Positions 164 to 22,799 of a stretch of 64,000 bases of DNA are shown here, piece after piece. Source of the DNA: Okeania sp. KiyG1. GTDB lineage: Bacteria; Cyanobacteriota; Cyanobacteriia; Cyanobacteriales; Microcoleaceae. Every line of letters starts with the position of its first letter. Position 1 is the stretch's first letter. The position numbers and the translations under genes were made by a program. The notes beneath the pieces were generated by a model. That model was not told the DNA's origin. It saw nothing but the letters and a program-made list of their open reading frames with translations, and did not search any database. Location of the stretch: assembly GCF_014132355.1 (NCBI RefSeq), contig NZ_BLZO01000057.1:1-64000 (forward strand). The letters run 5' to 3'.

Positions 164-3100
164 ATGGCACTACCAAAACTTTTAAATTCCTATGACTTAC
201 AACCTTTTTTGGCTAATCCAGTCCTACTAACTGAGCAAACTAGAGAGCTACAGTTAGCGATCGCTAATTATCCAGACACACCAAGAAACCTCCTAGAAAT
301 CCTGGTTAATAGTTTTGACCCCCTAGTGGCAGAAGCAGCAAGTCACCATGTCAATTGGGCGGGAGAAATTACGGAAAATTGGCACTACTTAGCAGATACA
401 ACTTTACAAACAAAAGAATTAGGACAAAATGACCGTCTGGCTGTGGAACTTCTGAAAATTGCTCCAGTGCCGGATTATTTTCTCAGCGAGTTTGTTCCTG
501 CAAGTTATCTGAGTTTAGCATTGAAAAATCCTCATCTACCTTTACGATATCGAGTGAAATATTTAGAGCGACTAGCATGGGAACCTGACCTAGAATCACG
601 TTTGCAAGTGGCAGAATGTCGAGAAACTCCAGTTGCTATGTTGGAAATATTGGCAGGGGATTTAGAATTGCCGATTCGGATGGCGGTAAAATCTAATCCC
701 ACTACTTCACAAGAGTTAATAGAGTTGATGGAAGGGCAACTTGCGGTAGCAAAAGATTGGAATACTGATGCGGAACAGTTAGCAACTTTAGGAGAAAGTA
801 GGTGGGATTTAATTCGGTTGGCAGTGGCTCAAAATCCGGTAACGAGTGGGGAAACTTTGATGCAGTTGGCAAGGGATGGGGTATTTAAGATTAAGTTCGC
901 GGTTGCCAAAAATCCTCAGACTCCGGCAAATGTTTTAGGAGTATTGGCAGAACATTCGGCAAAGGAAATTAAGTCAGCAGTCGCCAAACATCCCAATGCA
1001 ACAGAGGAAATTTTACATCAATTGTTTCCGACTCAGAAGGGTGTTTTGAGGGGAAGGAAGAATTTACCTGCTAGTATTTTAGAACGATTTTTTCGAGAAG
1101 CAGCTACGGATGAGCCGATTTGGAAACAATATGATTTACGAAATTTGCTCTTAAGGCAGTCAAATACTCCTACTTGGATTTTGGCGGAGTTTGCAAATGT
1201 GGATATTGAAGCAGTGAGATATGAGAGGTTAGCTAATTTTGACAATCCTGACTCAGAGGCTCTAGATCCTGCACTACCCTTGATAGGTAACTTTCCTACA
1301 ACTCCTGCTGAAATTGTAGAATATTCTATTCAAGAGGACATGGAATTTTTAGCTGAAGTTGCTCAACATTCACAAGTTTCAGTGGAAATTTTGGAGCGAT
1401 TAAGTCACGCTCCAATTGCTGAAGTGCAGTTAGCTGTAGCCCTAAATATTCAAACACCGGAGGTACTAAGACTGAGTTTATTAGAAAACTTATCGGTTAA
1501 TGCTGAGGAAGACATTAAAATTGAAATTGCCAAAGATATCAATACACCTATACATATTTTAGAAATGATGGTGGAAAACGAATTTACTGACAAGAAGTTA
1601 TTGTCAGGAATGAGACAAATTTTGACATCTAACTGTAATAGTAGTGGTTGGTGGGATTCGATCTCGGATTTAAAAGAGAAGCTTTTATCCCCAGCAAACA
1701 TTACTATAGATGTTGAATGCTGGATAGAAGCGATTAAAAATTCTGGTATAATTAAAAATTTAGAGAATATGCCAGATGACGTCGATAGTGAAATGGATAT
1801 CATCTACTCTGTATGGAGGGAGGTATTACCAGGGTTTTCTAAAGAGCAAATTAGAAATGTAACTGATACACTCATTAACGAGAGCGATATAATTCTTCAA
1901 AACATAAAACGTAGATCGATGTACCGTTGTACTGCTGTTGCATTAGTTGGCAATCCCAATACTCCAAGTATGCTGCGAGAAAAGTTAAAAAAACAGTTAA
2001 TTATACAAGACGAAAGAAAAGATTGCTATTATCAAAGAAACGAAAACTTATTTTTAGCACTTGGTTATAATCCAGAAGTTCCCAAAACAGAACGTGAAGA
2101 ATACTTACGGGAACTTGTTCAATGGAGTTGTATCCGCCAAAATATTGCAACAGATACTCGGACTCCCCTAGAAATTTTAGAGCACATGTGGGAGCAAGGA
2201 GAACAAGAAGCGGTAGCCAGCAGTCCTGCCACTCCAGGATATCTACTTCGACAAATTGCCAATGAGTCTTTAGATAATGAGTCTGTTTTGAGAGAAATTG
2301 CTAAAAATCTAAATGCTCCACTTGAGTTACGGATTCAATTTGTGAAATATCTATATGAAAACTATACAGAAACTAAACATCGAGACCTTCTAGATTTGGT
2401 ACTTGATAACCCCAACTTGAAAATTCTAGAACGTTATCGGTTTTTACTGGAAAAAGAGCTACAGGAACAAATAAAGAAAACACGCAAATTTATGTCAAAG
2501 CAACCCCAATTTATGAGCGAAGTATTGAAAAGTAATAACATCCAAGCTATCAAGAATGTAGCTCGAAACTGTGAAACTCCGATTCATATTTTAGAGCAAC
2601 TTACCAAACATCCCGACGAAAATATTCGTGATGCGTTGTTAGATAATCGGAATTTGCCGAGGGATACTTTACTAGAACTTGCTCGCGATCCAAGCGTTTC
2701 TGTACGGTGCAAACTAGCAAGGAAGATTTTTCGCCGACAGACTCCAGTAGAAATTCTGGAAATGCTGGCAGATGATGAATCAGAAGAAGTTAGGAAATTA
2801 GTGGCAGAAAATCCTGATACTCCTGTTGAGACGTTAGTGAAATTGGCAAATGATTCTAGTAAGTCTGTCAAAGAGAAATTAGTCAGTAATTCTAAGACTC
2901 CAGTAGAAATTCTGGAAATTCTGGCAGATGATGAATCAGAAAAAATCAGGCAATTAGTAGCAAAAAATTCTCATACTCCTGTTGAGACGTTGGTGAAATT
3001 AGCCAATGATTCTAGTAAGTATGTCAAGCAGAAATTAGTCAGTAATCCTAATACCCCTGTGGAAATACTAGAACGTTTGGGTTTAGAAGAGAAGATTTTT

Positions 3101-4369
3101 AATATTAGTAATGCTAATACACCAGCAAGTATTCTAGAAAAACTCGCAGACCATTCTTCTGAGTCAGTGCGATATGAGGTTGTCGGACATCGCAATACTC
3201 CGGTGAGTGTAATAGAAAAGCTAGCTAATGATAAGTATATTTATACAATTAGGACGATCGCGGAAAAGTCCCAAACACCTCCCCATATTCTAGAGCGACT
3301 CGCTACCCATCCAGATTATACAACCCGTTATTATGTAGCTATTAATCGGAATACTCCTGCTACAGCGCTGGAAAAGCTAATTCGATATAACGAAAGTGAA
3401 GCTAACTCTCCTTCGAGAAATAAAGATAGCCTCAAAACAATGATGACAGACGCGGATAAAAACAATATTCGGTCTGCGATAGCTAAAAATACTCGTACTC
3501 CGATAGCTGTATTAGAGATGCTAGCAACAAGAGAGTTTTACGGAGAGCAAAAAACTGAGGAGCGTGGTGAATACTACTATTTCCCCTCCAGAACAGTTGA
3601 ATATGTACTACAATCATTAGTTGACAACCCCAACTTAACTCCCTCAATTTTAGCCAAACTAGCACGAGACCCCAATCCTGAGATTCGCAGTCTTTTGGTA
3701 CGTCATCCCAATATAACTCCCGAACTTTGGCAACAACTGGCAAAGGATGAAGATCGAACTGTGCGAGGGGCGATCGCTGACTATTATAACACACCTATTA
3801 ATATTCTTGAAGCTCTAGCTTTAGATATAGATACAGAGGTGCGCCAGAAAGTAGTGGCTAATTCCAATACTCCTACAACTGCCCTAGAAATTCTTTCTCA
3901 AGATTCTATGGCTGAAGTTCGTACTGCTGTTGCTGGGAACCAAAACACTAACGTTATAGTTTTAGAACAGTTGGGGGAAGATGAAAAAGTAGAAGTGCGT
4001 CGAGCTGTTGCCCAAAACCCAAACACTCCAGTTTCCTTGCGGGAATCATTGAGAGATTTGTTGGCCTTACAATATACCCCAATACCTAGTACCACATTAT
4101 CAGGACTGAGCCGTATTTACAAGCCAGATACGGATGATTTACCAACATTGTTATCAGAATATGCCCAATCTGACAATGCTTTCGTCCGTTTTGTAACTTT
4201 GACGCACCCGTTAACTCCTGTTGACAGTATTAGGGAGTGTTGTCAGTCTCTGTTATGGCAGGAGCGTTATGCTATTGCTGAGAACCCCTCCACTCCAGCA
4301 GAGATACGGGAACAACTAGCAAATGATGGCAACCGCATTGTGCGAGCGACTGCCAAAGCAAACTTATAG
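164..4369 (+). CDS. Giant LRV/HEAT-like repeat protein (paralogue 1)
   Basis: The 1401-residue product is almost entirely degenerate repeats of about 24-26 residues with the pattern N-x-x-T-P-x-x-[IV]-L-E-x-L-A-x-(D)-x-x-x-x-[VI]-R-x-x-V-A. That pattern matches the leucine-rich repeat variant (LRV) family, an alpha-helical solenoid related to HEAT repeats. I see no signal peptide, membrane segment or catalytic motif, and the N-terminus lacks the cysteine cluster of the Azotobacter LRV protein. A cytosolic binding scaffold is the most that can be inferred. The N-terminal ~300 residues and the C-terminal ~180 residues (including IYKPDTDDLPTLLSEYA) are nearly identical to the paralogues at 7342 and 10398, while the middle differs. 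The ATG follows an upstream block that recurs before the gene at 10398. Two GTTGGGTT hairpins follow the stop. Confidence 0.85.
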   Translation: MALPKLLNSYDLQPFLANPVLLTEQTRELQLAIANYPDTPRNLLEILVNSFDPLVAEAASHHVNWAGEITENWHYLADTTLQTKELGQNDRLAVELLKIAPVPDYFLSEFVPASYLSLALKNPHLPLRYRVKYLERLAWEPDLESRLQVAECRETPVAMLEILAGDLELPIRMAVKSNPTTSQELIELMEGQLAVAKDWNTDAEQLATLGESRWDLIRLAVAQNPVTSGETLMQLARDGVFKIKFAVAKNPQTPANVLGVLAEHSAKEIKSAVAKHPNATEEILHQLFPTQKGVLRGRKNLPASILERFFREAATDEPIWKQYDLRNLLLRQSNTPTWILAEFANVDIEAVRYERLANFDNPDSEALDPALPLIGNFPTTPAEIVEYSIQEDMEFLAEVAQHSQVSVEILERLSHAPIAEVQLAVALNIQTPEVLRLSLLENLSVNAEEDIKIEIAKDINTPIHILEMMVENEFTDKKLLSGMRQILTSNCNSSGWWDSISDLKEKLLSPANITIDVECWIEAIKNSGIIKNLENMPDDVDSEMDIIYSVWREVLPGFSKEQIRNVTDTLINESDIILQNIKRRSMYRCTAVALVGNPNTPSMLREKLKKQLIIQDERKDCYYQRNENLFLALGYNPEVPKTEREEYLRELVQWSCIRQNIATDTRTPLEILEHMWEQGEQEAVASSPATPGYLLRQIANESLDNESVLREIAKNLNAPLELRIQFVKYLYENYTETKHRDLLDLVLDNPNLKILERYRFLLEKELQEQIKKTRKFMSKQPQFMSEVLKSNNIQAIKNVARNCETPIHILEQLTKHPDENIRDALLDNRNLPRDTLLELARDPSVSVRCKLARKIFRRQTPVEILEMLADDESEEVRKLVAENPDTPVETLVKLANDSSKSVKEKLVSNSKTPVEILEILADDESEKIRQLVAKNSHTPVETLVKLANDSSKYVKQKLVSNPNTPVEILERLGLEEKIFNISNANTPASILEKLADHSSESVRYEVVGHRNTPVSVIEKLANDKYIYTIRTIAEKSQTPPHILERLATHPDYTTRYYVAINRNTPATALEKLIRYNESEANSPSRNKDSLKTMMTDADKNNIRSAIAKNTRTPIAVLEMLATREFYGEQKTEERGEYYYFPSRTVEYVLQSLVDNPNLTPSILAKLARDPNPEIRSLLVRHPNITPELWQQLAKDEDRTVRGAIADYYNTPINILEALALDIDTEVRQKVVANSNTPTTALEILSQDSMAEVRTAVAGNQNTNVIVLEQLGEDEKVEVRRAVAQNPNTPVSLRESLRDLLALQYTPIPSTTLSGLSRIYKPDTDDLPTLLSEYAQSDNAFVRFVTLTHPLTPVDSIRECCQSLLWQERYAIAENPSTPAEIREQLANDGNRIVRATAKANL
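2740..3051 (+). repeat. Internal 156-bp tandem duplication in LRV gene 1
   Basis: The stretch starting GACTCCAGTAGAAATTCTGG at 2740 recurs at 2896, so the spacing is 156 bp, or 52 codons (two 26-residue LRV units). The two copies are nearly identical at DNA level, including synonymous positions. This points to a recent in-frame expansion of the solenoid rather than ancient repeat structure. Seen directly; the recent age is inferred. Confidence 0.75.
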
Positions 4370-4370
4370 G

Positions 4371-4437
4371 TTGGGTTGATGAAAGAAACCCAACAAAACC
4401 AGTAAACTTGTAGGTTGGGTTGATGAAAGAAACCCAA
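4371..4437 (+). terminator. Tandem GTTGGGTT hairpins after LRV gene 1
   Basis: Two copies of TTGGGTT-gatgaaaga-AACCCAA lie directly after the stop codon (stems 4371-4377/4387-4393 and 4415-4421/4431-4437). The same hairpin follows LRV gene 3 (14574-14595), and inverted GTTGGGTT copies occur near 4742-4826 and 14750-14782. Their position suits transcript ends, but they lack a T-run and may equally be a dispersed palindrome. Confidence 0.5.
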
Positions 4438-4473
4438 CAATATTCTAAACTACTAAACTTATGATTATCCTTA

Positions 4474-4717
4474 ATATCATGTTCGGTTGAATACTTATAA
4501 ATAACTGTTGTGAGGAGTCAGGAGTCAACCCACCCCTCGCCCCTCCCCTCCCAACCCACCCCTAACCCCGACCGTGGAGGGAGGGAAGTCAGGAGTCAGG
4601 AGGGAAGAAAGGAGGAATGCTTATGAAATATGGGAAAATAGTATTGATAATTTTAGTATTTCTTTGGTACTGTCAGCCCTTAAATTTTATTTATAACTGA
4701 TTATCCGAACATGATAT
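4474..4717. mobile_element. MITE-like element, family 2 (ATATCATGTTCGG ends)
   Basis: This 244-bp intergenic segment has inverted ends: ATATCATGTTCGGTTGA on the left and TTATCCGAACATGATAT on the right. It contains C-rich sequence of the shared CCCCTCCCCTCC / GACCGTGGAGG cassette and no coding capacity. Other copies are at 16121-16261 and 48025-48205, with single ends near 29490 and 38984. Confidence 0.7.
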
Positions 4718-4847
4718 AACTCAACCGTATGGGGTTATTGTTGGGTTGCGCTGTCGCTTAACTTAACCTACTTGCTTGCTCGTAAAAAAATTATTGTTGG
4801 GTTCGCTGTCGCTTAACCCAACCTACTGTTTCTCGAAATATAATATT

Positions 4848-5804
4848 ATGCAACCTGAAATTGAAAAAATTATCGGCACTTTAGAAATTCTAACTCAACC
4901 ATCCCTGAGATGTAATTTACCCGGTCACGAGTATGCAGCAAATTTTGTTCCTTTTGTCTGGGATGTCTCTGAATGGGGAAATTTTAATATCCGCAATCTT
5001 TGTCTTAGCAATGGTTGGCTAGAAATTACAGATGCAGATGCTACAGTAAAGCAATGGCAAAATATGAAATATCCCAGAAATTTTCCTGATTTTAATGTAA
5101 GTTTAGAACAGCGGAATTTATGGAGAAATAAAATCGATTTTTTGTTTCAACTCCTTCAGAATAACTTGACAACATTAGAATCTTTTTTCTTGGTTTTTAA
5201 ATTCGAGGTGGATGGAGGAATTTATCTACCTGGTATGCTTATTGGCGAGACAAAAGATGGAGATTGGGTTGGTGTCTCTCACACTATTTATAAAGAAACT
5301 GAAATTACTCAAGAAATAATCGATCGTTCGGAGCAAATTGAAATTGATTCAAATATTTTACTAGAGGAAAATACTGTGGATTTAATAGCAAAAATTCAGG
5401 CAATTACTTCGGAGTTAGGCACAATTAATTTTTCTGGAGATAGAGGTGGTGGTGACTATCCTTATAATTACGACCATAAAATTGTTTTGACTGCTGCCAA
5501 AACTAAAGAATTAGTATTTGAAAAAATCTTACAGGCTACAGAATGCCTAGAAATTAATCACTTTTATAGTTTTCATCCCGATATAGAATATTTACGAGAT
5601 TGGTGTTATTTCCAGGAGAATGAAGCTGAGAAAATGTATCATAGATACAATACAATAAATCGTTTTTTTCAGCATACTTTCGAGCAAACATTTATTTATC
5701 GGTTTAGTTTTTGGACTCGAGAATGTATCTATGTACTCGGTCAAACTCAGGGAAAAAATTTGGCTGGTGTTTATATAGAGGGCGACTTTACTTATAACCC
5801 TTAA
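4848..5804 (+). CDS. NuiA-like protein, subtype A
   Basis: The 318-residue product is of unproven function. Residues ~95-175 resemble the nuclease A inhibitor family: a helix of the type LFQLLQNNL followed by IGETKDGDWVGVSHTIYKET, close to the IGETPAG...GIS strand of NuiA as I remember it. A second, similar helix-strand unit closes the protein (FFQHTF ... YVLGQTQGKNLAGVY) and ends FTYNP, as all intact paralogues end in YNP or FNP. The start was set at the ATG reading MQPEIEKIIGTLE because the paralogue at 16539 begins identically. The further upstream extension lies in hairpin repeats. It follows an LRV gene and precedes a subtype-B relative. The nuclease-inhibitor role is inference. Confidence 0.65.
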   Translation: MQPEIEKIIGTLEILTQPSLRCNLPGHEYAANFVPFVWDVSEWGNFNIRNLCLSNGWLEITDADATVKQWQNMKYPRNFPDFNVSLEQRNLWRNKIDFLFQLLQNNLTTLESFFLVFKFEVDGGIYLPGMLIGETKDGDWVGVSHTIYKETEITQEIIDRSEQIEIDSNILLEENTVDLIAKIQAITSELGTINFSGDRGGGDYPYNYDHKIVLTAAKTKELVFEKILQATECLEINHFYSFHPDIEYLRDWCYFQENEAEKMYHRYNTINRFFQHTFEQTFIYRFSFWTRECIYVLGQTQGKNLAGVYIEGDFTYNP

Positions 5805-5835
5805 ATACTAAAAACTTGGAAATTAAAAAAATTAT

Positions 5836-6010
5836 GTAAGCATTCAGCTATCAGCAGTCAGCTATCAGCAATTAGTAATGAATAATTACTTCTGAGGTTT
5901 TGTCCAGGAACTTTGGTAGTAACTTTTTATTCTTTTTAAATTTCAAAGGTTGCTTTTACCTTCCCTAAAATTAATAGCTAATAGCTAATAGTTGACGGCT
6001 GAATGCTTAC
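5836..6010. mobile_element. MITE-like element, family 7 (GTAAGCATTCAGC ends)
   Basis: The segment is bounded by GTAAGCATTCAGC (5836-5848) and its inverted copy GCTGAATGCTTAC (5998-6010), with heptamer-type CAGCTAT and AATAGCT runs inside. A second copy is at 19533-19724. The right end overlaps the upstream ATG at 6003, one reason to place the start of the next gene further in, at 6120. Confidence 0.6.
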
Positions 6011-6119: not shown

Positions 6120-7151
6120 ATGAAACTTGAAACAGAAAAATTACTCGGCACTTTAGAAGTTTTAGTCAAAAATCCTTTCTTGTGGGAGACAGAAAAAAGG
6201 GGGGATTTTAATATCTGGAATTTGATGATTTCTGAAGGTTGTATTCATCTAACAGATGTGGAATTAGCCATCGCTCATTGGCAAGATGTGGAACATTGGG
6301 GTACTCCCACCTATCAAACTGAAGATGATTTTGAGTATGCACCTTTCAGACATGAGGAAGACGACGATCGGGATTATGAGTACGCACCTTTCAAATATGA
6401 TGAAGATGAAGATGAGGATATTTGGAGTGATGAAATAGAAGCGTTTCGAGTCGATCGTTATCAACAATTGTTAACTCTTTTGAAAGCAGAATTGCTAGAT
6501 TTACAAGCTTTTCGACTTACGACTATTGAGCATTTAAAGAGGGGGCATCCTTATTTTTATTTCCACATTCTGATTGGCAAAACAGAAGATGGAGATTGGT
6601 TTTGTTTTTCCCCCATTGTGCCAGATCAAGTTAGCGATCCAAATCATCATACCGAACGCTTTGCAGACAATGAAGATTGGTTTTATTTTTTGCCTACAAA
6701 ACTAAAGCAAGAGGGCGATCGCCCTTTCACTCCTCTAAAAACTGGTGACACAGAAACTAACTCTCTCAACCCAAAAACATCAGATTTACAATCAAAAATA
6801 GATGCTATTCTTTCGGAGTTGCCACCCATTACAATTTATGGATACTATGGCGGAGGTTACGATTATACCTACAAACATCAAATAGTTTATGCTACTGCTA
6901 GCAACAAAATATTGGCAATAGAAAAAGCTTTGCAAGCAGCAGAAATGTTGAAACTTGAAAACAGAGATATTGAATTTAGGTCAAATGAATACAACAGAAA
7001 GCTGAGTCAATTTTTTCAGACTCAATTGCACCAACCAAAAACTTATAGTCTCAGCTTTTGGGATATTGGGTATATCTATCAAGTAGCAGAAACTCCAACA
7101 GGAGATTGGTTGGGAGTGCGCAAAATGGTTGAATTTGATTATAATCCATAG
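6120..7151 (+). CDS. NuiA-like protein, subtype B (with acidic insert)
   Basis: The 343-residue product begins MKLETEKLLGTLE, as do the subtype-B paralogues at 14840 and 17960, which fixes the start. It carries a conserved WGxFNxWNL block, then a NuiA-like helix and strand (RYQQLLTLLKAEL ... ILIGKTEDGDWFCFSP). A central IYGYYGGGYDYTYKHQIVY segment follows, then a second NuiA-like unit ending VAETPTGDWLGVRK...DYNP. Unlike its paralogues it has a duplicated acidic stretch at residues ~66-95 (DDFEYAPF...DRDYEYAPF) and an extra insert around residues 180-200. No catalytic residues are evident. Function is unknown; an inhibitor or binding role is inferred from fold resemblance and from neighbouring LRV genes. 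Confidence 0.65.
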   Translation: MKLETEKLLGTLEVLVKNPFLWETEKRGDFNIWNLMISEGCIHLTDVELAIAHWQDVEHWGTPTYQTEDDFEYAPFRHEEDDDRDYEYAPFKYDEDEDEDIWSDEIEAFRVDRYQQLLTLLKAELLDLQAFRLTTIEHLKRGHPYFYFHILIGKTEDGDWFCFSPIVPDQVSDPNHHTERFADNEDWFYFLPTKLKQEGDRPFTPLKTGDTETNSLNPKTSDLQSKIDAILSELPPITIYGYYGGGYDYTYKHQIVYATASNKILAIEKALQAAEMLKLENRDIEFRSNEYNRKLSQFFQTQLHQPKTYSLSFWDIGYIYQVAETPTGDWLGVRKMVEFDYNP

Positions 7152-7341: not shown

Positions 7342-9147
7342 ATGACACTACAAGCATTAAATCTAGATGATTTACAGCCTTTTTTGGCCAAGCATGTCCT
7401 ACTAACTGAGCAAACTAGAGAGCTACAGTTAGCGATCGCTAATTATCCAGACACACCAACTAATCTGCTGGAAATCCTAATTAATAGTTCTGACCCTCTA
7501 GTGGCAGAAGCAGCAAGTCACCATGTTAATTGGGCGGGAGAAATTACGGAAAATTGGCACTACTTAGCAGATACAACTTTACAAACAAAAGAATTAGGAC
7601 AAAATGACCGTCTGGCGGTGGAACTTCTGAAAATTGCTCCAGTACCGGATTATTTTCTTAGCGAGTTTGTCCCTGCAAGTTACCTGAGTTTAGCATTGAA
7701 AAATCCTCATCTACCTTTACGATATCGAGTGAAATATTTAGAGAGACTGGCACAAGAACCTGAGCTACAACCACGCTTAGAAGTGGCAGAATGTCCAGAA
7801 ACTCCAGTTGCTATGTTGGAAATATTGGCAAGGGATTTAGAATTGCCGGTTCGGATGGCGGTAAAATCTAATCCCATTACTGTGCCAGAGTTAATAGAGT
7901 TGGTAGAGGAGCAACTTGCGGTAGCAAAAGATTGGAATACTGATGCGGAACAGTTAACAACTTTAGGAGAAAGTCGGTGGGATTTAATTCGGTTAGCAGT
8001 AGCTCAAAATCCTCAGACCCCGGCAAATGTTTTAGCATTATTAGCAGAACATTCGGCAGTAGAAATAAAGTCAGCAGTTGCCAGACATCCTCATGCAACG
8101 GAGTCAATTTTACATCAACTGTTTCCAACTCAGAAGGATGTTTTGAGGGAAAGAAAGAATTTACCTGTTAGTATTTTAGAACGATTTTTTAGGGAAGCTG
8201 CCACAGACGAGCCTATTTGGAAACAATATGATTTACAAAATTTGTTCTTGAGGCAGCTAAATACTCCCACTTGGATTTTGGCAGAGTTGACAAATGTGGA
8301 TATTGAAGCGGTGAGAGCTGAGAATGAAGCCCTTGAACCAGGTTACCCTGAAATTGTAGAAACTTTGGTTCAAGATGACATTAGCTTTCTATATGATGTA
8401 GCTAAACATCCACAGGTTTCGGTGGAAATTTTAGAAGGATTGAGTGATTGTATTCATCCTGATGTGCAATTAGCAGTCGCTCAAAACTCCCGAACCCCCG
8501 AATTGTTGCGAAATCAGATTTTATTACGACTCGCACTCGGTGATGATGAAGGAGTAGTAAGAGCGATCGCCCGCTCTCCAGAAACTCCGGTTGCAATTCT
8601 AGAACGTTTGATTTCGCCTGCTACTACAGGAAATCAAGTTACAAAATTAGCTAGGGAGATAGTACCTAATATTTCCGAAGATTTGCTACAGAAAATCATC
8701 AATTTTGTGAATAAATATCAGTCTCCCCAGAGAATTTTAAATCGGTTACGAGATGAAAATTCTCGCGAGTCCGTGTTTGAAGAATGGAGACAACTTTTAG
8801 CTGGTTTAAACGGAATAGATCGAACTGCACTGGAGGTTTTATGTAAGGGTATGTTACCAGGAATTGGTTTTGGTTTTTGTGGCGGGTTGCCAGGAGAAGA
8901 TCGTTGGCTCGAAAAGTATTATTCCGTGACTTCAGGAGAATTCTATTTATATGGGTTGTTGACACTATTGGGATTAGCTACGGAAAATACTGGTAATCGC
9001 AGCATTGCCCTAGCCTTATTGAGTAATCCTAACACTCCCGCACCATTGCGAGAAGAGTTAAAGGAACAACTTATTAACTCTACTAACAAGAATCCGACGG
9101 ATGTTGTAATAGAGTTATCGAACATCGCAATACTCCGGTTAGGGTAA
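7342..9147 (+). CDS. LRV/HEAT-like repeat protein, 5' part of a broken gene (paralogue 2)
   Basis: The 601-residue product matches paralogue 3 (10398) through about residue 590, up to the KNPTDV motif. It then shifts into a short unrelated tail ending IAILRLG. DNA from about 9110 onwards matches the region around 3180 of paralogue 1 but in another frame, so the stop arises from an out-of-frame internal deletion. The first ~230 residues are near identical to the other two copies except at the very start (MTLQALNLDDLQPF). If translated it would give a truncated solenoid lacking the conserved C-terminal block. Probably a pseudogene of a ~1000-residue protein, although an expressed short form is possible. 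Confidence 0.7.
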   Translation: MTLQALNLDDLQPFLAKHVLLTEQTRELQLAIANYPDTPTNLLEILINSSDPLVAEAASHHVNWAGEITENWHYLADTTLQTKELGQNDRLAVELLKIAPVPDYFLSEFVPASYLSLALKNPHLPLRYRVKYLERLAQEPELQPRLEVAECPETPVAMLEILARDLELPVRMAVKSNPITVPELIELVEEQLAVAKDWNTDAEQLTTLGESRWDLIRLAVAQNPQTPANVLALLAEHSAVEIKSAVARHPHATESILHQLFPTQKDVLRERKNLPVSILERFFREAATDEPIWKQYDLQNLFLRQLNTPTWILAELTNVDIEAVRAENEALEPGYPEIVETLVQDDISFLYDVAKHPQVSVEILEGLSDCIHPDVQLAVAQNSRTPELLRNQILLRLALGDDEGVVRAIARSPETPVAILERLISPATTGNQVTKLAREIVPNISEDLLQKIINFVNKYQSPQRILNRLRDENSRESVFEEWRQLLAGLNGIDRTALEVLCKGMLPGIGFGFCGGLPGEDRWLEKYYSVTSGEFYLYGLLTLLGLATENTGNRSIALALLSNPNTPAPLREELKEQLINSTNKNPTDVVIELSNIAILRLG

Positions 9148-9374: not shown

Positions 9375-10310
9375 ATGATGGCAGGAGCAGATAATAACGA
9401 AATTCGGAGGAAACTCGCCAGAAACACTCGTACTCCGATAGCTGTATTAGAGATGTTAGCAAAAAGAGAATTTTATGGAGAGGAAAAAGAGGAGTGTCGT
9501 GACTACATTATTCCCCCCAGAACAGTTGAAGAGGTATTGGAATCGTTAGCTTTCAACCCTAACTTAACTTCCTCAATTTTGGCCAAACTGGCACAAGATC
9601 CCAGTGCTAAAATTCGCAGTCTTTTAGTATATCATCCAAATATGACTTCCGAACTTTGGCAACAGATTGCACAGGATGAGGATAAGGATGTGCGAGAGTA
9701 TATCGCTTCCTCCATCGATACCCCCATTCATATTCTCGAAACTCTAGCTTTAGATACAGATACAGAGGTGCGTCAGAAAGTAGCAGCTAATCCTAATACT
9801 CCCACAACTTCCCTAGATATTCTTTATCAAGATTATATGGCTGAAGTTCGTACTGCTGTTGCTGGCAACCAAAACTCCAACGTTATAGTTTTGGAACAGT
9901 TGGGAAAAGATGAAAAAGTAGAAGTGCGTCGAGCAGTTGCCAAGAACCCTAACACTCCTGCTCCTCTCCAGGAGTCCCTGAAAGATTTGCTAGACTTACC
10001 TTATGTCCCTCGTTATATCCCTAAACTTAGCCCCACATTAGCAGGAGTGAGCCGTATTTACAAACCTGATACGGATGATTTAGCAACATTGTTATCAGAA
10101 TACGCCAAATCTGATAATGCTTTCGTCCGTTTTGTGACTTTGATGCACCCGTTAACTCCTGTTGATAGTATTACCGAGGGTTGTCAGTCTCTATTTTGGC
10201 AAGAACGTTATGCGGTTGCCGATAATTCCTCTACTCCAGGAGAAATACTAGAGCAACTTGCCAATGATAGTAACCGTATTGTGCGAGCAACCGCCAAAGC
10301 AAACTTGTAG
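9375..10310 (+). pseudogene. 3' remnant of LRV paralogue 2
   Basis: This 311-residue frame carries the conserved LRV C-terminus (IYKPDTDDLATLLSEYA, FVRFVTLMHPLTPVDSI). The same frame is open well upstream of its first ATG, from before 9123 (HRNTPVRVIERLAN...), with homology to residues ~1005 onward of paralogue 1. The ATG at 9375 is therefore an internal methionine, not a native start, and I see no Shine-Dalgarno sequence before it. The fragment is the severed 3' part of the gene starting at 7342. Confidence 0.7.
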
Positions 10311-10397: not shown

Positions 10398-13300
10398 ATG
10401 GCACTACCAAAACTTTTAAATTCCTGCGACTTACAACCTTTTTTGGCCAATCCGTCCCTACTAACTGAGCAAACTAGAGAGCTACAGTTAGCGATCGCTA
10501 ATTATCCAGATACACCAACTAATCTGTTGGAAATCCTGGTTAATAGTTCTGACTCCCTAGTGGCAGAAGCAGCAAGTCACCATGTCAATTGGGCGGGAGA
10601 AATTACGGAAAATTGGCACTACTTAGCAGATACAACTTTACAAACAAAAGAATTAGGACAAAATGACCGTCTGGCGGTGGAACTGCTGAAAATTGCTCCA
10701 GTGCCGGATTATTTTCTCAGCGAGTTTGTCCCTGCAAGTTATTTGACTTTAGCATTGAAAAATCCTCATTTACCGTTACGGTATAGGCTGAAATATTTGG
10801 AGCGACTGTCACGGGAACCTAACCTAGAGCTACGTTTGCAAGTAGCAGAATGTGGAGAAACTCCAGTACCAGTGTTGGAAATATTGGCAGGGGATTTAGA
10901 ATTGCCTATTCGGGCAGCGGTAAAATCTAATCCCACTACTCCGCCAGAGTTAATAGAGTTGATGGAAGGGCAATTAGCGACAGCTCGGAATTGGAATACT
11001 GATGCGGAACAGTTAGCAACTTTAGGAGAAAGTCGATGGGATTTAATTCGGTTAGCAGTGGCTCAAAATCCGGCAACGAGTGGGGAAACTCTGATGCAGT
11101 TGGCAAGGGATGGGGTATTTAAGATTAAGTTGGCGGTTGCGAAAAATCCTCAGACTCCGGCAAATGTTTTAGGAGTATTGGCGGAAAATTCTGGAAAGGA
11201 AATTAAGTCAGCAGTCGCCAGACATCCCAATGCAACGGAGGAAATTTTGCATCAATTGTTTCCGACCGAGAAGCGTTTCTTGGGATATGGAATGCGGAAT
11301 TTACCTGCTAGTATTTTAGAACGGTTTGTTGGAGAAACTGGCAAAGGCTTGCCTATTTGGAAACAACATGAATTGCGAAGCTTGCTATTGAGACAGGTAA
11401 ATACACCCACTTGGATTTTGGCTGAGTTGGCCAATGTGGATCTTGAGTCAGTGAGAGCTGAAAAAGAAGCTCAAGGTCTTAAAACTCGAAATTCTGCTAA
11501 AGTTATTGAAAGTTGGATTCTAGATGAAATTCGATTTCTAGTGGATGTTGCCAAACACCCAAAAGTTTCGGTAGAAATTTTAGAACAATTGAGTGATTCT
11601 CCTCATCCGAAAGTTCAATTAGCAGTTGCTCAAAACTCGCGAACGCCAGAACAGTTGAAAAATCAAATTTTATTACGACTCGCCTTCGGTGACGATGAAG
11701 AAATAGTAAGAGCGATCGCCCGCTCTCCAGAAACTCCCGTTGCGATTCTCGAACGTTTGATTTCAACTTCTACTACAGGAAATCAAGCTGCACAGTTATT
11801 CAGGAAGATGACACCTAATACCTCAGAAAATTTACCACATAAAATCACCAATTTTGTGAATAAATATCAGTCTTCCCAGAGAATTTTATCTCTATTACGG
11901 GATGAAAATTCTCGCGAGTCGGTGTTGGAAGAATGGAGACAACTTTTAGCTAGTTTAAACGGAGCAGACCGAACTGCACTGGAGGTTGTATGTAAGGGTA
12001 TGTTACCAGCAATTGGTCTGGGTGGCGGGTTGCCACGACAAGATCGTTGGCTTCAAGAGTATCATTCCTTGACTGGAGCAGAATTCTATTTATATGGGCT
12101 GTTGATACTATTAGGATTTGCTACAGAAAATACTGCTAATCGAGCAATTCCGCTAGCCCTATTAAAGAATCCCAACACTCCCGCACCATTGCGAGAAGAG
12201 TTAAAGGAACGACTGATTGATTCTACTACCAAGAACCCGACTGATGTCATAGAGGCACTTGCTTATAATTCAGCAATTCCTGAAGCAGAGCGACTGGAAT
12301 ATTTTCAACAACTTTTATCAATGAGTAGGAATAAAGAGGCGATTGCTCGTAGTCCTAATACGCCACCGGAAATCTTATCTCAATTAATGACAGGTAGTGG
12401 TGCAGGTCGTCCAAAAGTTTCTAGAAACTCAAACGAAACAGCCCGTCGTTGGGTGGCGGAAAATCCTGGTACTCCTGTAGAAATATTGCTACAGTTGGCT
12501 ACTCAAACTCTGGAAAAGCCAAAGTCGGATACTTCTAAAACAAAGTCAAGTTTGGCGAATAATTCCGTAATTTGGGAAAAGGTATTGAATAATCCAAGTT
12601 TACCCCCACTGGAACGCTATCGGTTATTACTGGAAAAAGAGTGGCAGGAAGAAACGGCGAAAGCAGATCGATTTATCTCAACCAGACTTCGTAGACGCAC
12701 CTCATTGGCAGATATGATAAAAAGTAGTGCTTCCGGAACAGATAGTGGAATAAATCACCATAATCTATATAATGCCGCTGGAAACTCTCGAACTCCCATT
12801 CATATTTTAGAGCAGCTTGCCAAACATCCTGACGAAAGTGTTCGTAGCGCATTGCTGAACAACCGAGCTTTGCCGAGTAATATTATGTTAGAGCTTGCCT
12901 GCGACTCCAGCGTTTCAGTACGGATAAAATTAGTAAGGAAAGATCGATACCGACAGACTCCAGTAGAAATTCTGGAAATGCTAGCAGATGATGAATCTGA
13001 AAAAGTCAGGGAATTAGTGGCAGAAAATCCTGATACTCCTGTTGAGGGGTTGATGAAATTGGCAAATGATTCTAGCGAGAATGTCAAGAAAAAATTGGTC
13101 AGTAATTCCAATACTCCTGTAGAAATACTAGAAAGTTTTGGTTTAGAAGAGGGAATTTTTGATGTTCGCAATGCTAATACGCCTAGCAGTGTGCTTGAAA
13201 AGGCAGTCAGAAAATATTGTAATCTTAGAAATACAAGCTCTTCACTGTCAAATTTGTTAAAAAATCCAGTTAAAGGTTCTCAAATGCCTCCTAGTATTCT

Positions 13301-14561
13301 TAATGAGTTGGAGTTGTCACACCATAAAAGTTATGAAATTCGTAGACTGGTAGCAAGCCATCCTAATACCCCAAGTCATATTTTAGAAAGACTTTGTAAA
13401 GATAACAACTCCAATATCCGTATTAAAGTTGCCGAAAACCCCAATACTTCAAGTCAAACTTTAGAGAAACTGTATAAAGATAGCGAATATCTTGTGCGTG
13501 CCGGAGTTGCTAAAAATCCTAATACCCCTCCTCACCTTCTAGAAAAGATTGCAAGACAAGAAGACCCGAATGAAAAATATAGATCGTACTCTATAGATAA
13601 GCTGAAAACTTATCATAAAGATAGAGCCTATTATACCGTTATCAGTCCCATAGCTAAACGTCTGGATACACCAGCAGCAGTATTAGAATTTCTGGCCAAC
13701 AGTCCGGAAACCAATATTCGCAAAATCGTCGCTAGAAATCCCAATACGCCATCAACAGCTTTGGAAAGTCTGGCGACTACAGAATCAGATATAGAAGTCT
13801 TAAAAGCACTGACTCACAACCCCAACTTAACAACAGAGGCGTTGCAACAACTATCTAGTAATTCTAATCGCGATTTCCTTATTTATCTGATTCGGACCGG
13901 TGAATTATCTCCCGAAGTTTGGCAGCAACTAGCAGAGAATGAAAATGCAATAGTGCGAGAAGCGATCGCTTCCTCTAGCATCACGTCCGTCCATATTCTC
14001 GAAGCTCTAACATTAGATAAAGATACAGAGGTGCGCCGAAAAGTAGCAGCTAATCCCAATACTCCCACAACTTCCCTAGATATTCTTTCTCAAGATTCTA
14101 TGGCTGAAGTTCGTACTGCTGTTGCTGGCAACCAAAACACTAACGTTATAGTTTTGGAACAGTTGGGACAAGATGAAAAAGTGGAAGTGCGTCGAGCAGT
14201 TGCCAAAAACCCTAACACTCCTGCTCTTCTCCAGGAATCCCTGAAAGATTTACTAGGCTTACCTTATGTCCGTAAAGCTAGCACCACATTATCAGGACTC
14301 AGCCGTATTTACAAGCCAGATACGGATGATTTACCAACATTGTTATCAGAATATGCCAAATCTGATAATGCTTTCGTCCGTTTTGTGACTTTGATGCACC
14401 CGTTAACTCCTGTTGATAGTATTACCGAGGGTTGTCAGTCTCTATTTTGGCAAGAACGTTATGCAATTGCTGAGAACCCCTCCACTTTGGGAGAGATACG
14501 GCAGCAACTCACCAATGATAGTAACCGTATTGTGCGAGCGACTGCCAAAGCAAATTTGTAG
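10398..14561 (+). CDS. Giant LRV/HEAT-like repeat protein (paralogue 3)
   Basis: The 1387-residue solenoid has the same repeat pattern and the same MALPKLLNS start as paralogue 1. The 80 bp upstream, including CATCAACCCAACAAAATTGT, copies the region at 92-163. Residues ~1-340 and the last ~150 are nearly the same as paralogue 1. The centre contains segments unique to this copy (for example residues ~930-1090, with ASHPNTPSHILERL and relatives) and others shared only with paralogue 2. There is no transmembrane segment, signal peptide or enzymatic motif. The closest known family is LRV (PF01816-type). A role in protein binding is inference. A GTTGGGTT hairpin follows the stop. Confidence 0.85.
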   Translation: MALPKLLNSCDLQPFLANPSLLTEQTRELQLAIANYPDTPTNLLEILVNSSDSLVAEAASHHVNWAGEITENWHYLADTTLQTKELGQNDRLAVELLKIAPVPDYFLSEFVPASYLTLALKNPHLPLRYRLKYLERLSREPNLELRLQVAECGETPVPVLEILAGDLELPIRAAVKSNPTTPPELIELMEGQLATARNWNTDAEQLATLGESRWDLIRLAVAQNPATSGETLMQLARDGVFKIKLAVAKNPQTPANVLGVLAENSGKEIKSAVARHPNATEEILHQLFPTEKRFLGYGMRNLPASILERFVGETGKGLPIWKQHELRSLLLRQVNTPTWILAELANVDLESVRAEKEAQGLKTRNSAKVIESWILDEIRFLVDVAKHPKVSVEILEQLSDSPHPKVQLAVAQNSRTPEQLKNQILLRLAFGDDEEIVRAIARSPETPVAILERLISTSTTGNQAAQLFRKMTPNTSENLPHKITNFVNKYQSSQRILSLLRDENSRESVLEEWRQLLASLNGADRTALEVVCKGMLPAIGLGGGLPRQDRWLQEYHSLTGAEFYLYGLLILLGFATENTANRAIPLALLKNPNTPAPLREELKERLIDSTTKNPTDVIEALAYNSAIPEAERLEYFQQLLSMSRNKEAIARSPNTPPEILSQLMTGSGAGRPKVSRNSNETARRWVAENPGTPVEILLQLATQTLEKPKSDTSKTKSSLANNSVIWEKVLNNPSLPPLERYRLLLEKEWQEETAKADRFISTRLRRRTSLADMIKSSASGTDSGINHHNLYNAAGNSRTPIHILEQLAKHPDESVRSALLNNRALPSNIMLELACDSSVSVRIKLVRKDRYRQTPVEILEMLADDESEKVRELVAENPDTPVEGLMKLANDSSENVKKKLVSNSNTPVEILESFGLEEGIFDVRNANTPSSVLEKAVRKYCNLRNTSSSLSNLLKNPVKGSQMPPSILNELELSHHKSYEIRRLVASHPNTPSHILERLCKDNNSNIRIKVAENPNTSSQTLEKLYKDSEYLVRAGVAKNPNTPPHLLEKIARQEDPNEKYRSYSIDKLKTYHKDRAYYTVISPIAKRLDTPAAVLEFLANSPETNIRKIVARNPNTPSTALESLATTESDIEVLKALTHNPNLTTEALQQLSSNSNRDFLIYLIRTGELSPEVWQQLAENENAIVREAIASSSITSVHILEALTLDKDTEVRRKVAANPNTPTTSLDILSQDSMAEVRTAVAGNQNTNVIVLEQLGQDEKVEVRRAVAKNPNTPALLQESLKDLLGLPYVRKASTTLSGLSRIYKPDTDDLPTLLSEYAKSDNAFVRFVTLMHPLTPVDSITEGCQSLFWQERYAIAENPSTLGEIRQQLTNDSNRIVRATAKANL

Positions 14562-14573
14562 CTAACTTGTAGG

Positions 14574-14595: not shown

Positions 14596-14839
14596 ACAGA
14601 TAGGTCATATCAAATCCGATAGTTTGTAGTTGATTCAATCCAACTTACGATTATCCTTAACTCAAGTGTTATAGCAGTGGAAGCAAAGCTTAGAACATTC
14701 CTAAATCTTTAAACGAGCTTCAGAGATTACTTCTGACTTCCACTATATTGTTGGGTTGTGCTGTCGCTTAACCCAACCTACTGTTTATCCAACGACTCAA
14801 TAATTGAATGTTAATAAATATCACCTAACAGTTAAAACT

Positions 14840-15751
14840 ATGAAACTTGAAACAGAAAAATTACTCGGCACTTTAGAACTTTTTGTCAGAAACCCTTTCT
14901 TTTGGGAGACAGAAAAATGGGGAAAATTTAATGTCTGGAATTTGATGCGTTCTGAAGGTTTTGTCAATTTAACAGATGTAGATTTAGTCATTGCTCATTG
15001 GCAAGATGTAGAACATTGGGGTACTCCAACTAATCAAATAGATGATTTTGAGTATGCACCTTTGAGAGATGAACAAGATGATGATTGGAATCCTGAAATA
15101 GAAAAATTTAGAGTAGAACGCTATCAACAGTTGTTAAAACTATTGAAGGCAGAATTATCAGATTTCCAAGGGTTCCGAATTGGCATTAATAAAGAATCAG
15201 ATGATTATTTTGAGTGGGAACATCCTAATTTTTATTTCCACATTCTAATTGGCAAAACAAAGGATGGAGACTGGTTTTGTTTTTCGCCCACTGTACCAGA
15301 CGAAGTTAGCGATCGCCGTCTTCAACGTTTACAAACTGGTTCCACAGAAACTCATCCTCTCAACCAAAAAACATTAGATTTACAATCTCAAATAGATGCT
15401 ATTCTCTCGGAACTATCACCTATGACAATCTATGGATATTATGGTGGAGGTTATGCTTATACCTACGAACATCAAATAGTTTATGCTACTACTGGGAGCA
15501 AAATATTGGCAGTGGAAAAAGCTTTGCACGCAGCTAAAATGCTGAAAGTGGAAGACTCAACTCTCGATTTTAGCTGTAGTGAATGTGGAGACAGTCGAAA
15601 ACTATGTCAATTTTTCATTAATCATCTTGGCGGTCCCAAAATTTATAGTCTGAGCTTTTGGGATATTGGGTATATCTATGAAGTAGCAGAAACTCCAACA
15701 GGAGATTGGTTAGGACTGCGTAGAATACTTGAATTTGAATTTAATCCATAG
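14840..15751 (+). CDS. NuiA-like protein, subtype B
   Basis: The 303-residue product starts MKLETEKLLGTLELF. It shares the WGKFNVWNLM block, the LTDVDLVIAHWQDVEHWGTP block and RYQQLLKLLKAEL...ILIGKTKDGDWFCFSP (first NuiA-like unit). It also has IYGYYGGGYAYTYEHQIVY and a C-terminal VAETPTGDWLGLRR unit ending FEFNP. It lacks the acidic duplication of the gene at 6120 and has a Cys pair (SCSECGDSRKLC) near residue 250 that is absent there. An in-frame upstream ATG at 14804 is possible, but homology begins at 14840. It follows LRV gene 3 by 278 bp, keeping the order LRV then NuiA-like seen at 164-5804. Function unknown. Confidence 0.65.
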   Translation: MKLETEKLLGTLELFVRNPFFWETEKWGKFNVWNLMRSEGFVNLTDVDLVIAHWQDVEHWGTPTNQIDDFEYAPLRDEQDDDWNPEIEKFRVERYQQLLKLLKAELSDFQGFRIGINKESDDYFEWEHPNFYFHILIGKTKDGDWFCFSPTVPDEVSDRRLQRLQTGSTETHPLNQKTLDLQSQIDAILSELSPMTIYGYYGGGYAYTYEHQIVYATTGSKILAVEKALHAAKMLKVEDSTLDFSCSECGDSRKLCQFFINHLGGPKIYSLSFWDIGYIYEVAETPTGDWLGLRRILEFEFNP

Positions 15752-16120
15752 GTTCAAACAATAATATTTTATGCTTTGCTGCATGAAAGTAGCGATCGCC
15801 ACTCATATCAAATCCGGTTAAACAGCCATAGAATGGTTAAGTTAGGAGGAGTCAACCTACCCCTCGCCCCTCCCCTCCCAACCCACCCTAACCCCGACCG
15901 TGGAGGAGGGGAGATCAGGAGTCAACCCACCCCCAACCCCGACCGTGGAGGGGAGAAAGAAGAAGAAACCCCGAGTAGAAGGAGAAAGTTTTTTGGTCGG
16001 GTAAAGGTCACGGAGTTCTATCGCGCTCTTATCCGGACATGGTATCATACCTCAAATTACTAACGCCCAATATTAATGTAAAACCTTGAACAATCGGTAT
16101 AAGTTAGGATAAAACAATTT
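15752..16120. repeat. Non-coding gap with intact HIP1 site and GC-rich cassette
   Basis: Downstream of the NuiA-like gene is an intact HIP1 site (15792-15799), the empty counterpart of the 24-bp insertion at 7193. Then come single family-3 type end sequence (TATCAAATCCGGTTAAA, 15808) and the C-rich CCCCTCCCCTCC / CCCCGACCGTGGAGG cassette twice (about 15850-15955). No gene is supported here. Confidence 0.55.
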
Positions 16121-16538: not shown

Positions 16539-17479
16539 ATGCAACCTGAAATCGAAAAAATTATCGGTACTTTAGAACTTCTCACTCACCCACATCTTAG
16601 ATTTGATTTACCAGGTCACGAAGATGGAGGAAATTTTTTTCCTTTTGCGTGGGATGTCTCTGAATGGGGAAAATTTAATATCCGCAATCTTTGTCTTAGC
16701 AATGGTTGGCTAAAAATTACTGATGCAGATGCCACATTTAAGGATTGGCAACATCTGGAATACATCAAAGGTTTTCCTGATTTTAATCTGAATTCAGAAG
16801 AGCAAAAATTCCGGGAAAATAGCATCAAAAAATTGTTTCAATTCCTCGAAAATAACTTGGAATACTTAGAATCTTTTATCTTAGATTATCATAGCGATTA
16901 CGCATATGCTAAATTTCCTGGTTTTATTATTGGTAGGACAAAATCTGGTGATTGGATTGGTATTGGTCAAACTTTTTATAAGGAGACTGCAATTCCTAAA
17001 AACACGATTTCTTGCTCTCCCCAAATCTCAATAAATTCTGAAAACTTAGAAGAAAGTACTTTAAATTTAATAGCAAAAATTCAGGAAATTATTTCCGAAC
17101 TAGGTACAATTCATTTTTCTGGAGATTTGGGTGGTGGTTATCTTTATACTTATGAACATAAAATTGTTTTTACTACTGCTAAAACTAAGGAATTAGTATT
17201 TGAAAAAATTATCCAAGCTTCGGAAATTTTAGAAGTTAATCAGTTTTATAATTTTTATCCTAATGCGGATTATTTACAAGATTGGTATAGGGATGATAAT
17301 TATCAAGAATTATCTCAGAGATACGATACAATAAATCGTTTTTTCAGCATACTTTTGAGGAAATATTTATGTATAGATTTAGTTTTTGGGCTCAAGAATT
17401 TATTTATGTCCTGGGTAAAACTCCGGGAAAAAATTTAGTAGGACTTTATCTAAATAGCGAGTTTATTTACAACCCTTGA
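16539..17479 (+). pseudogene. NuiA-like protein, subtype A, frameshifted near the 3' end
   Basis: This paralogue of the gene at 4848 starts MQPEIEKIIGTLELL. It has the NIRNLCLSNGW block, the strand IGRTKSGDWIGIGQTFYKET and the GGGYLYTYEHKIV block. After INRFF the frame changes and ends at 17438 (299 codons). The paralogue has seven T at 5663-5669; here there are six (17339-17344). Restoring one T yields a typical tail that includes FIYVLGKTPGKNLVGLY and ends FIYNP at 17477-17479. It is therefore a one-base deletion in a homopolymer: a true recent mutation, a slippage-type switch or a sequencing error. The altered frame loses the second NuiA-like unit. Confidence 0.65.
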
Positions 17480-17499
17480 ATATCAAAATATTGGGAGTC

Positions 17500-17775
17500 A
17501 TATCAAATCCGGTTGAATACTTACTATATAGTTGAGAGTAGGGGACCCACCCTAGCCCCTCCCCTCCCGTGGAGGGGAAGAGGGAGTGGGGAGATTAGAT
17601 AGACATCTCCAATAATAAAAAATCAATATCTATATCGTACAGAAATTATCAATTATTTCCCCCTCCATACCTACTCCCTATGGGTGGAAGAGATGTCTAA
17701 TATTGGAGTAATTTAAGAAATTATAAACAGATATTATATAGCCGGATTCTATGTGCAATTAACCGGATTTGATAT
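17500..17775. mobile_element. MITE-like element, family 3 (TATCAAATCCGG ends)
   Basis: Bounded by ATATCAAATCCGGTTGAATA and inverted AACCGGATTTGATAT; it carries TAGGGGACCCACCC and the CCCTCCCCTCCCGTGGAGGGG cassette. Related copies with TATAGAATCCGG ends are at 44619-44786 and 50218-50439, and one with TATCAAATCCGG ends at 46151-46312. No coding capacity. Confidence 0.65.
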
Positions 17776-17959
17776 CAACAAAATGTAGGGGCGTTAACGA
17801 TAGTTATGCCAAGCAAATGGCATTTGCGCTCCGCAAAGCTCCGCTTTACATGTCGCGGAGCGTTAACGGAGTTATGCGGTAGCAAAACGCCCTGATTGGA
17901 TTTAGTTTATGTGCGTAAGTCCTGATGTTAATCAATACCACCTAATACCTAAATTAATT

Positions 17960-18886
17960 ATGAAACTTGAAACAGAAAAATTACTTGGAACTTTAGAAAT
18001 TTTAGCCAGAAGACCATTCTTTTGGGATACAGAAAAATGGGGAAAATTTAACGTCTGGAATTTGATGCGTTCTGAAGGTTGTGTCAATTTAACAGATGTG
18101 GAAGTAGCGTTGGCGGAGCCTAGCGGCAGCTATCTCGCTCATTGGCAAAATGTGGAGCATTGGGGTACACCTACTAATCAAATTGGAGATAGTTGGGAGT
18201 ATGCACCTTTGAGAGATGAGCGAGATGATGATTGGAATGCAGAAATAGAAGCATTTCGAGTCGAACGTTATCAACAGTTATTAACACTTTTGAAAGCAGA
18301 ATTGTCAGATTTGCAGGCGTTCCGACTTACTACTGTTGAACATTTGCAGAGGAGGTATCCTGATTTTTGTTTCTATATTCTGATTGGCAAAACGGAAGAT
18401 GGAGACTGGTTTTGTCTGTCACCTATTGTGCCAGATCAAGTTAGCGACTACGATTTTGAACCTCCAAAAATTGGCTTGAAAGAAACTAACTCTCTCAACC
18501 CAAAAACATTAGATTTACAAAGGAAAATAGATAATATTCTCTCGGAAATTCCACCTATTACGCTTTATGGATATTATGGTGGAGGTTATGACTACACTTA
18601 CGAACATCAAATAGTCTATGCAATCGCTGATAGTAAAATATTAGCGGTGGAAAAAGCTTTGCAAGCTGCTCAAATGTTGATAGTGGAAGATTCTGACCTT
18701 GAATTTAGCTCCGATGAATCTGGAGACAGCAGAAAACTGTGTCAATTTTTCATTGATAAATTGGGCGACCCAAAAATTTATAGTCTGAGTTTTTGGGATA
18801 TTGGCTATATTTTTGAAGTAGCAGAAACTCCAAACGGAGATTGGTTAGGGGTGCAAAAAATACTTGAATTTGATTATAATCCCTAG
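17960..18886 (+). CDS. NuiA-like protein, subtype B, with 24-bp element in frame
   Basis: The 308-residue product starts MKLETEKLLGTLEIL and keeps all subtype-B blocks: WGKFNVWNLM, RYQQLLTLLKAEL...ILIGKTEDGDWFCLSP, LYGYYGGGYDYTYEHQIVY and VAETPNGDWLGVQK, ending DYNP. Relative to its paralogues it has eight extra residues in LTDVEVALAEPSGSYLAHWQ (others LTDVELAIAHWQ), encoded by a 24-bp element inside a HIP1 site at 18107-18138. The frame is preserved, so the gene may be functional. Upstream in-frame codons from 17909 exist, but homology starts at 17960. Function unknown, as for the other members. Confidence 0.65.
   Translation: MKLETEKLLGTLEILARRPFFWDTEKWGKFNVWNLMRSEGCVNLTDVEVALAEPSGSYLAHWQNVEHWGTPTNQIGDSWEYAPLRDERDDDWNAEIEAFRVERYQQLLTLLKAELSDLQAFRLTTVEHLQRRYPDFCFYILIGKTEDGDWFCLSPIVPDQVSDYDFEPPKIGLKETNSLNPKTLDLQRKIDNILSEIPPITLYGYYGGGYDYTYEHQIVYAIADSKILAVEKALQAAQMLIVEDSDLEFSSDESGDSRKLCQFFIDKLGDPKIYSLSFWDIGYIFEVAETPNGDWLGVQKILEFDYNP
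18107..18138. mobile_element. 24-bp HIP1-nested element inside a coding region
   Basis: This is the same 32-bp structure as at 7193 and 60218 (GCG ... GGAGCCTAGCGGCAGCTAT ... CGC). It equals a GCGATCGC octamer expanded by 24 bp and lies in frame within the NuiA-like gene. Confidence 0.75.
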
Positions 18887-22796: not shown

Positions 22797-22799
22797 TTA

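Follow-up and report, generated by a model that had tools for sequence, protein, structure and literature searches.

Why should giant repeat proteins of the LRV family be encoded side by side with relatives of NuiA, the nuclease A inhibitor of Anabaena? The question is raised by an island at the start of contig NZ_BLZO01000057.1 of the cyanobacterium Okeania sp. KiyG1, in which eight genes follow each other on the plus strand between positions 164 and 18886 in the order LRV1, A1, B1, LRV2 (broken), LRV3, B2, A2 (frameshifted) and B3. The stretch analysed, referred to as the window, comprises 64,000 nucleotides, i.e. bases 1-64000 of a 113-kb contig in a genome of 11 Mb assembled into 198 contigs. 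As the window begins at the first base of the contig, the island may have been truncated on its left by the assembly. An earlier sequence-only reading had given the same extent, gene order and single strand and had proposed a target-binding and inhibitor or immunity-type system under diversifying selection. The two points by which that reading was open to refutation, NuiA homology and conserved co-localisation of the two families in other genomes, are upheld in the following, its claim of diversifying selection is not. The pairing of LRV genes with genes for double-NuiA proteins and the homology of the latter to NuiA are established. Physical association of the two partners is likely, inhibition of a nuclease by them is about evenly balanced between true and false, and a foreign target is a guess.

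The Pfam LRV model (PF01816) exceeds its cut-off with E-values of 4.6e-75 for LRV1 and 5e-75 for LRV3 and matches the two pieces of LRV2 with 4e-13 and 5e-23. The LRV_2 and HEAT models are also above cut-off in LRV1 and LRV3, as is DUF2336 in LRV3. Judged by their mutual similarity, the five small proteins belong to a single family, with 60% identity between A1 and A2, 59-70% among B1, B2 and B3 and 26-31% between A and B (E-values of 3e-14 to 1e-34). Four of them (A1, B1, B2 and B3) pass the cut-off of Pfam NuiA (PF07924, 22.1 bits), and A2 reaches 21.2 bits. Neither the LRV nor the NuiA matches are due to chance, and the fold assigned to the small proteins is that of NuiA. Each of them contains two NuiA-like halves in about 310 amino acids, as opposed to the single domain of about 135 amino acids in NuiA.

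Among 389 genomes of the order to which the window belongs, the LRV N-terminal block (cut at E <= 1e-35) is present in 20, and a double-NuiA gene is found in 18 of these compared with eight of the 369 others. The strong double-NuiA set underlying this count was picked by hand; it includes G139 and G338, and short, stop-containing and other weaker matches were excluded. With a fixed cut-off of E <= 1e-20 the figures are 16/20 and 10/369 (p = 2e-18, or 3e-17 without the window's genome), and with any profile match counted they are 18/20 and 60/369 (p = 7e-12). Of the two LRV genomes outside the 18, G297 carries an LRV remnant of 90 residues and G354 an LRV gene that has diverged. Twenty-five further genomes with weaker LRV matches (4e-27 to 1e-10) were treated as containing other LRV proteins; in one of them (G374) an LRV fragment resides next to a double-NuiA gene. 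Both genes fall into one cluster in all 18 genomes, with a gene for about 210 amino acids in between in two cases (G364, G384). Among the loci fetched, 27 distinct ones contain both genes, and in 26 of these, namely 17 from genomes of the order, the window itself and eight from a second collection, the LRV gene is situated upstream on the same strand. The exception, L077, lies at a contig end and has an LRV fragment downstream of the double-NuiA gene. The closest spacing is that in L045, where the two genes overlap by 4 bp; the window is more loosely spaced, with 406 bases separating LRV1, and 242 bases LRV3, from the frame that follows. An LRV frame of at least 1200 amino acids is present in 14 of the 26 linked loci, some of the others being cut by contig ends.

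Linked loci of the order are spread over nine family codes. The second collection has 12 linked loci out of 20, four of them duplicating loci of the 389-genome set, and among the carriers are Nostoc, Calothrix, Tolypothrix, Aliterella and Baaleninema; stand-alone double-NuiA members also occur in Elainella and Pegethrix. A sample of 386 genomes from the phylum contains the family in 13 (E <= 1e-6), all of them from the window's order, the share of other orders in the sample not being listed. On a tree with 66 rows the LRV-linked label changes seven times, compared with 18.6 times when shuffled; this tree is a quick one with long branches, from which rows shorter than 250 or longer than 400 amino acids and the duplicate loci L110, L111, L119 and L120 were left out. 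No such LRV/double-NuiA pair is described among the matches listed in the openly licensed literature, as far as the accessible parts of these sources extend.

That solenoids and double NuiA associate physically is best supported by natural fusions. Pentapeptide-repeat proteins with C-terminal NuiA domains are encoded in three genomes (L075:8452-10443, L174:5375-7396 and L175:5541-7307), and Pfam recognises two NuiA stretches each in L075 and L175 and a single one in L174, where a second is discernible by eye. As in the island, a repeat solenoid is joined to NuiA domains; the fusions, however, combine them with a beta-solenoid in one chain, whereas the island encodes an alpha-solenoid upstream.

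Some further arrangements in the surroundings of these families were noted. In L175 a 1655-amino-acid DUF5724-DUF4132-DUF7737 protein (518-5485) is encoded immediately upstream of the pentapeptide/NuiA fusion. The double-NuiA proteins L176:6727-7938 and L177:5388-6572 have an additional N-terminal stretch, which from its sequence is possibly WGR-like; a Pfam scan of L176 returned nothing named in this stretch. A gene for about 200 amino acids from a high-copy family lies within or directly upstream of LRV/double-NuiA operons (L061:10628-11263, L111:1328-1957, L113:8207-8842 and L114:8209-8844; related L116:5950-6555), and a PD-(D/E)XK motif is possible in this family. Contig C147 of the window's genome (L171, 2586-15238) bears four Endonuclease_NS matches on the minus strand (frames of 619, 232, 426 and 1606 amino acids) that alternate with pentapeptide-repeat genes on the plus strand, an arrangement that resembles a nuclease/immunity array with solenoid partners.

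How much of the binding face of NuiA is retained in the double-NuiA proteins? NuiA reportedly acts on NucA via Glu24, Asp75-Trp76 and the C-terminal Thr135, positions that agree with the NuiA sequence by manual count and that we take to be the contact residues. In the accessible part of one paper (PMC5374557) a contact between Glu24 and Asp121 is named and Glu24 is assigned to NucA, which is the opposite of the assignment used here. Glu24 and Trp76 are both invariant in true NuiA (21/21 each) and the last residue is threonine in 20 of these 21 proteins. For the double-NuiA family, the residue counts rest on an alignment near 20% identity in which LRV-linked rows of the two main sides of the tree (support 81 and 88) were taken as A and B, and 13 other rows and 12 VWT rows were tallied separately. 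Glu24 is kept in 16/21 A-type and 0/19 B-type first halves, Trp76 in 1/21 and 15/19, respectively. First halves of the other rows have either residue in 5/13 cases, those of the VWT rows have Glu24 in 6/12 and Trp76 in 0/12. By eye, the distance from the glutamate to a conserved tryptophan is ten residues in A1 as in NuiA, and that from the tryptophan to the aromatic residue of the next helix is twelve residues in B3 as in NuiA. In the second halves, each of the 53 A, B and other members has a gap at the Glu24 column. The chain ends with ...NP in 19/22 A, 18/19 B and 13/13 other proteins (50/54 in total) and in 0/12 members of the separate VWT clade; this Asn-Pro end sits three residues past the residue aligned to NuiA 135. 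Since A tends to keep Glu24 and B Trp76, and both mostly end with ...NP, the old binding face of NuiA seems to be partly distributed over A and B, which have a new tail in common.

The explanation that we put forward, tentatively and with slightly less than even confidence, is that the island is a duplicated two-component system, presumably cytoplasmic, in which an LRV/double-NuiA complex acts as a derived nuclease inhibitor against a foreign or elsewhere-encoded nuclease. One giant LRV solenoid would form a complex with the one to three double-NuiA proteins whose genes follow shortly downstream of its own. The double-NuiA part would be the inhibitor proper, its C-terminal tail being placed where the C-terminal threonine of NuiA enters the metal site of the nuclease, and A and B would tend to retain different ones of the other two contact residues. 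The LRV solenoid could provide both scaffold and recognition, with its swapped interior setting the specificity. A nuclease from outside, stemming from a competitor or a phage, or one encoded elsewhere would be the likely target, and with such a target the island would operate in the manner of polyimmunity or orphan-immunity loci. A more far-reaching version, which we consider clearly unlikely as it stands, is a modular nuclease-neutralising defence of cyanobacteria: mosaic LRV proteins with exchangeable interiors would recognise foreign nucleases, a split, domain-swapped NuiA pair would block their active sites, with A as acidic plug, B as tryptophan contact and the new C-terminal tail on both, and the same plan would have been rebuilt in the pentapeptide fusions. 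What has been known of NuiA is a single inhibitor with a single nuclease as its counterpart; the present members of the family are doubled, have diversified and recur in a gene pair with giant repeat proteins. The pair may neutralise some nuclease, and if it does, both the architecture of the inhibitor and the defence or immunity module would be new.

The clear variation in the island is exchange of the LRV interior, the LRV paralogues being mosaics. For LRV1 against LRV3, the proportion of synonymous differences (pS) amounts to 0.15-0.28 at the two ends (the first 300 and the last ~180 columns) and to 0.69-0.84 at columns 400-800, with values in between for the remaining columns. The sites that support each pairing in a three-way DNA alignment of the LRV genes are clustered, with 386 pairing switches versus a mean of 554 and a minimum of 510 in 2000 shuffles, and LRV2 is LRV3-like until ~9104 and LRV1-like, out of frame, from ~9114. 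Diversifying selection is not borne out by the whole-gene ratios of nonsynonymous to synonymous substitution rates (dN/dS), which lie between 0.12 and 0.52 in all pairs computed (0.27-0.34 for the B paralogues, 0.49-0.52 for A1, A2 and the relative in G314, 0.29-0.44 for the LRV pieces and 0.12-0.36 for Nostocales orthologues); the genes are constrained on average. A few local windows are near 1, so that such selection may act on single sites: the proportion of nonsynonymous differences (pN) is 0.24 and pS 0.25 at columns 160-200 of the B2/B3 alignment, and pN/pS is 0.85 in window 500 of LRV1/LRV3, where pS is close to saturation. Other genomes of the genus show the island to be labile. In G314 it takes a reduced form, LRV plus A, next to the same cyclase gene (94% DNA identity) that follows the island in the window, and G297 retains its LRV remnant. 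Of the five further genomes of the genus, three (G250, G305 and G326) have neither an LRV nor a double-NuiA gene, and 15.4 kb fetched upstream of the cyclase gene in G326 contained no match.

NucA orthologues (E <= 1e-60) are tracked by true NuiA (E <= 1e-30): they occur in 87/95 genomes with it versus 38/294 without, and NucA adjoins true NuiA on the opposite strand in 17 of 20 chosen stretches, two of the other three ending at contig ends. One such NuiA/NucA pair, its genes lying ~1.8 kb from each other, is also present on contig C116 of the genome from which the window derives. In genomes with the LRV pair, NucA orthologues are not enriched (8/18 versus 117/371 others, p = 0.30). True NuiA is present in 8/18 pair genomes versus 87/371 others (p = 0.052, borderline), and a loose cut-off (E <= 1e-10) yields a weak excess of NucA-like matches, 13/18 versus 148/371 (p = 0.012), both associations being uncorrected for genome size. 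This excess notwithstanding, NucA orthologues were rejected as the main target, as the pair does not track them.

The lack of NucA enrichment weighs against the inhibitor complex that we propose, and it is joined by a number of further observations. Five of the 18 pair genomes are devoid of any NucA-like match even at the loose cut-off, no target gene was recognised near the pair and PADLOC returned no match. None of the seven Endonuclease_NS matches of the genome is on the island's contig; the sequence-only statement that the window holds no nuclease is thus correct for this family, other nuclease and toxin families not having been searched over the whole window. Strong double-NuiA matches occur without any LRV match in eight genomes. 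The division between A and B is not clean, Glu24 being absent from 5/21 A-type and Trp76 from 4/19 B-type first halves; it is also blurred by a tryptophan at the Trp76 column in 5/21 A-type second halves, and by manual count A and B co-occur in 12 of the 26 linked loci. With ...NP in place of the terminal threonine and a chain that is three residues longer, the metal contact cannot be identical to that of NuiA. Finally, extended polyimmunity loci are reported, in the accessible part of PMC3482391, only from certain proteobacteria, bacteroidetes, firmicutes and actinobacteria.

Several of these points would suit a reuse of the NuiA fold as a protein-binding adaptor in a regulatory or assembly complex unrelated to nucleases: the pair does not follow NucA orthologues and has no nuclease neighbour, the terminal threonine is replaced, the Glu24 loop is lost in B-type proteins, and stand-alone members adjoin varied, housekeeping-looking genes. 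A locus that is patchy (20/389 genomes), duplicated, often broken and labile within the genus is, however, unlike one with a housekeeping role, and either Glu24 or Trp76 is retained in most A- or B-type first halves, so that we regard an adaptor as somewhat unlikely. The neighbourhood of true NuiA bears another possibility. There, the adjacent gene encodes the target (NucA in 17/20 fetched stretches), and LRV, as the recurrent neighbour of double NuiA, could by the same token be the protein for which the latter serves as antidote or regulator. This appears quite improbable given that only repeat-type Pfam models and no catalytic or toxin domain exceed the cut-off in LRV1 or LRV3, that eight genomes have a strong double-NuiA match without an LRV match and that LRV is located upstream in 26/27 loci, whereas NucA sits on the strand opposite NuiA. 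We regard it as highly improbable that the island is a family of repeat genes in decay, functionless at present and sustained by duplication and recombination. Gene order is kept across nine families, whole-gene dN/dS is 0.12-0.52 and LRV1, LRV3, A1, B1, B2 and B3 have long open frames, even though LRV2 and A2 are broken, LRV frames are short or split in many relatives and both genes are absent from G250, G305 and G326.

With regard to known systems, NuiA (PF07924; PDB 2O3B, 1J57) has one domain, a terminal threonine and NucA as its neighbour, whereas the proteins studied here have two domains per chain, a tail that ends with Asn-Pro and is three residues longer, and an LRV neighbour together with several tandem small-protein paralogues. 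LRV proteins (PF01816) share the repeat (E ~5e-75); the present subfamily differs by its giant size, by similar ends with exchanged interior and by the double-NuiA gene downstream. Polyimmunity loci and proteins of polymorphic toxin systems, as described in the accessible part of PMC3482391, are similar in having tandem paralogues, tandem domains in one protein, HEAT-repeat immunity families and a locus without toxin gene (in our case with respect to Endonuclease_NS on the contig). Unlike in these loci, a fixed order of LRV and double NuiA recurs here, and the immunity role is one that we infer; the word NuiA was not counted in the accessible text of that paper.

Table 1. Genes and gene pieces of the LRV/double-NuiA island (positions in the window)
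Feature	Position	Strand	Remarks
LRV1, giant LRV solenoid gene	164..4369	+	1401 amino acids; Pfam LRV
A1, double-NuiA protein	4848..5804	+	frame opens at 4776; start set by paralogue alignment; Pfam NuiA 4e-9
B1, double-NuiA protein	6120..7151	+	frame opens at 6003; Pfam NuiA 1.7e-7
LRV2, N-terminal piece (broken LRV gene)	7342..9147	+	open frame; Pfam LRV
LRV2, C-terminal piece	9375..10310	+	other frame; Pfam LRV
LRV3, giant LRV solenoid gene	10398..14561	+	1387 amino acids; Pfam LRV
B2, double-NuiA protein	14840..15751	+	frame opens at 14804; Pfam NuiA 5.6e-9
A2, double-NuiA gene with frameshift	16539..17438	+	Pfam NuiA 3.7e-4, slightly below cut-off
A2, C-terminal stretch	17333..17476	+	different frame; family profile E-value 3.6e-11
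B3, double-NuiA protein	17960..18886	+	frame opens at 17909; Pfam NuiA 3e-8

Apart from the genes listed in Table 1, the window contains several repeated elements. A 79-bp intergenic stretch at 4520-4598 recurs with 92% identity at 15847-15924, both copies residing inside the island. At 19174-19367 a repeat of ~195 bp is located, perhaps a miniature mobile element. Each of the six genomes of the genus has many copies of it, and identity is mostly ~88-97% among the matches listed. The cyclase-like gene of the Cache-HAMP-PAS type (20038-22796) has a frame of 779 amino acids, in which the Pfam match to the cyclase domain covers only positions 6-41 of 183, and a frame of 123 amino acids comes next. 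Directly after this gene, a long tandem array of ~126-bp units with variants of 99 and 224 bp extends from 22797 to 25364, and a 393-bp tandem repeat with 3.9 copies and 97% match is found at 29564-31088.
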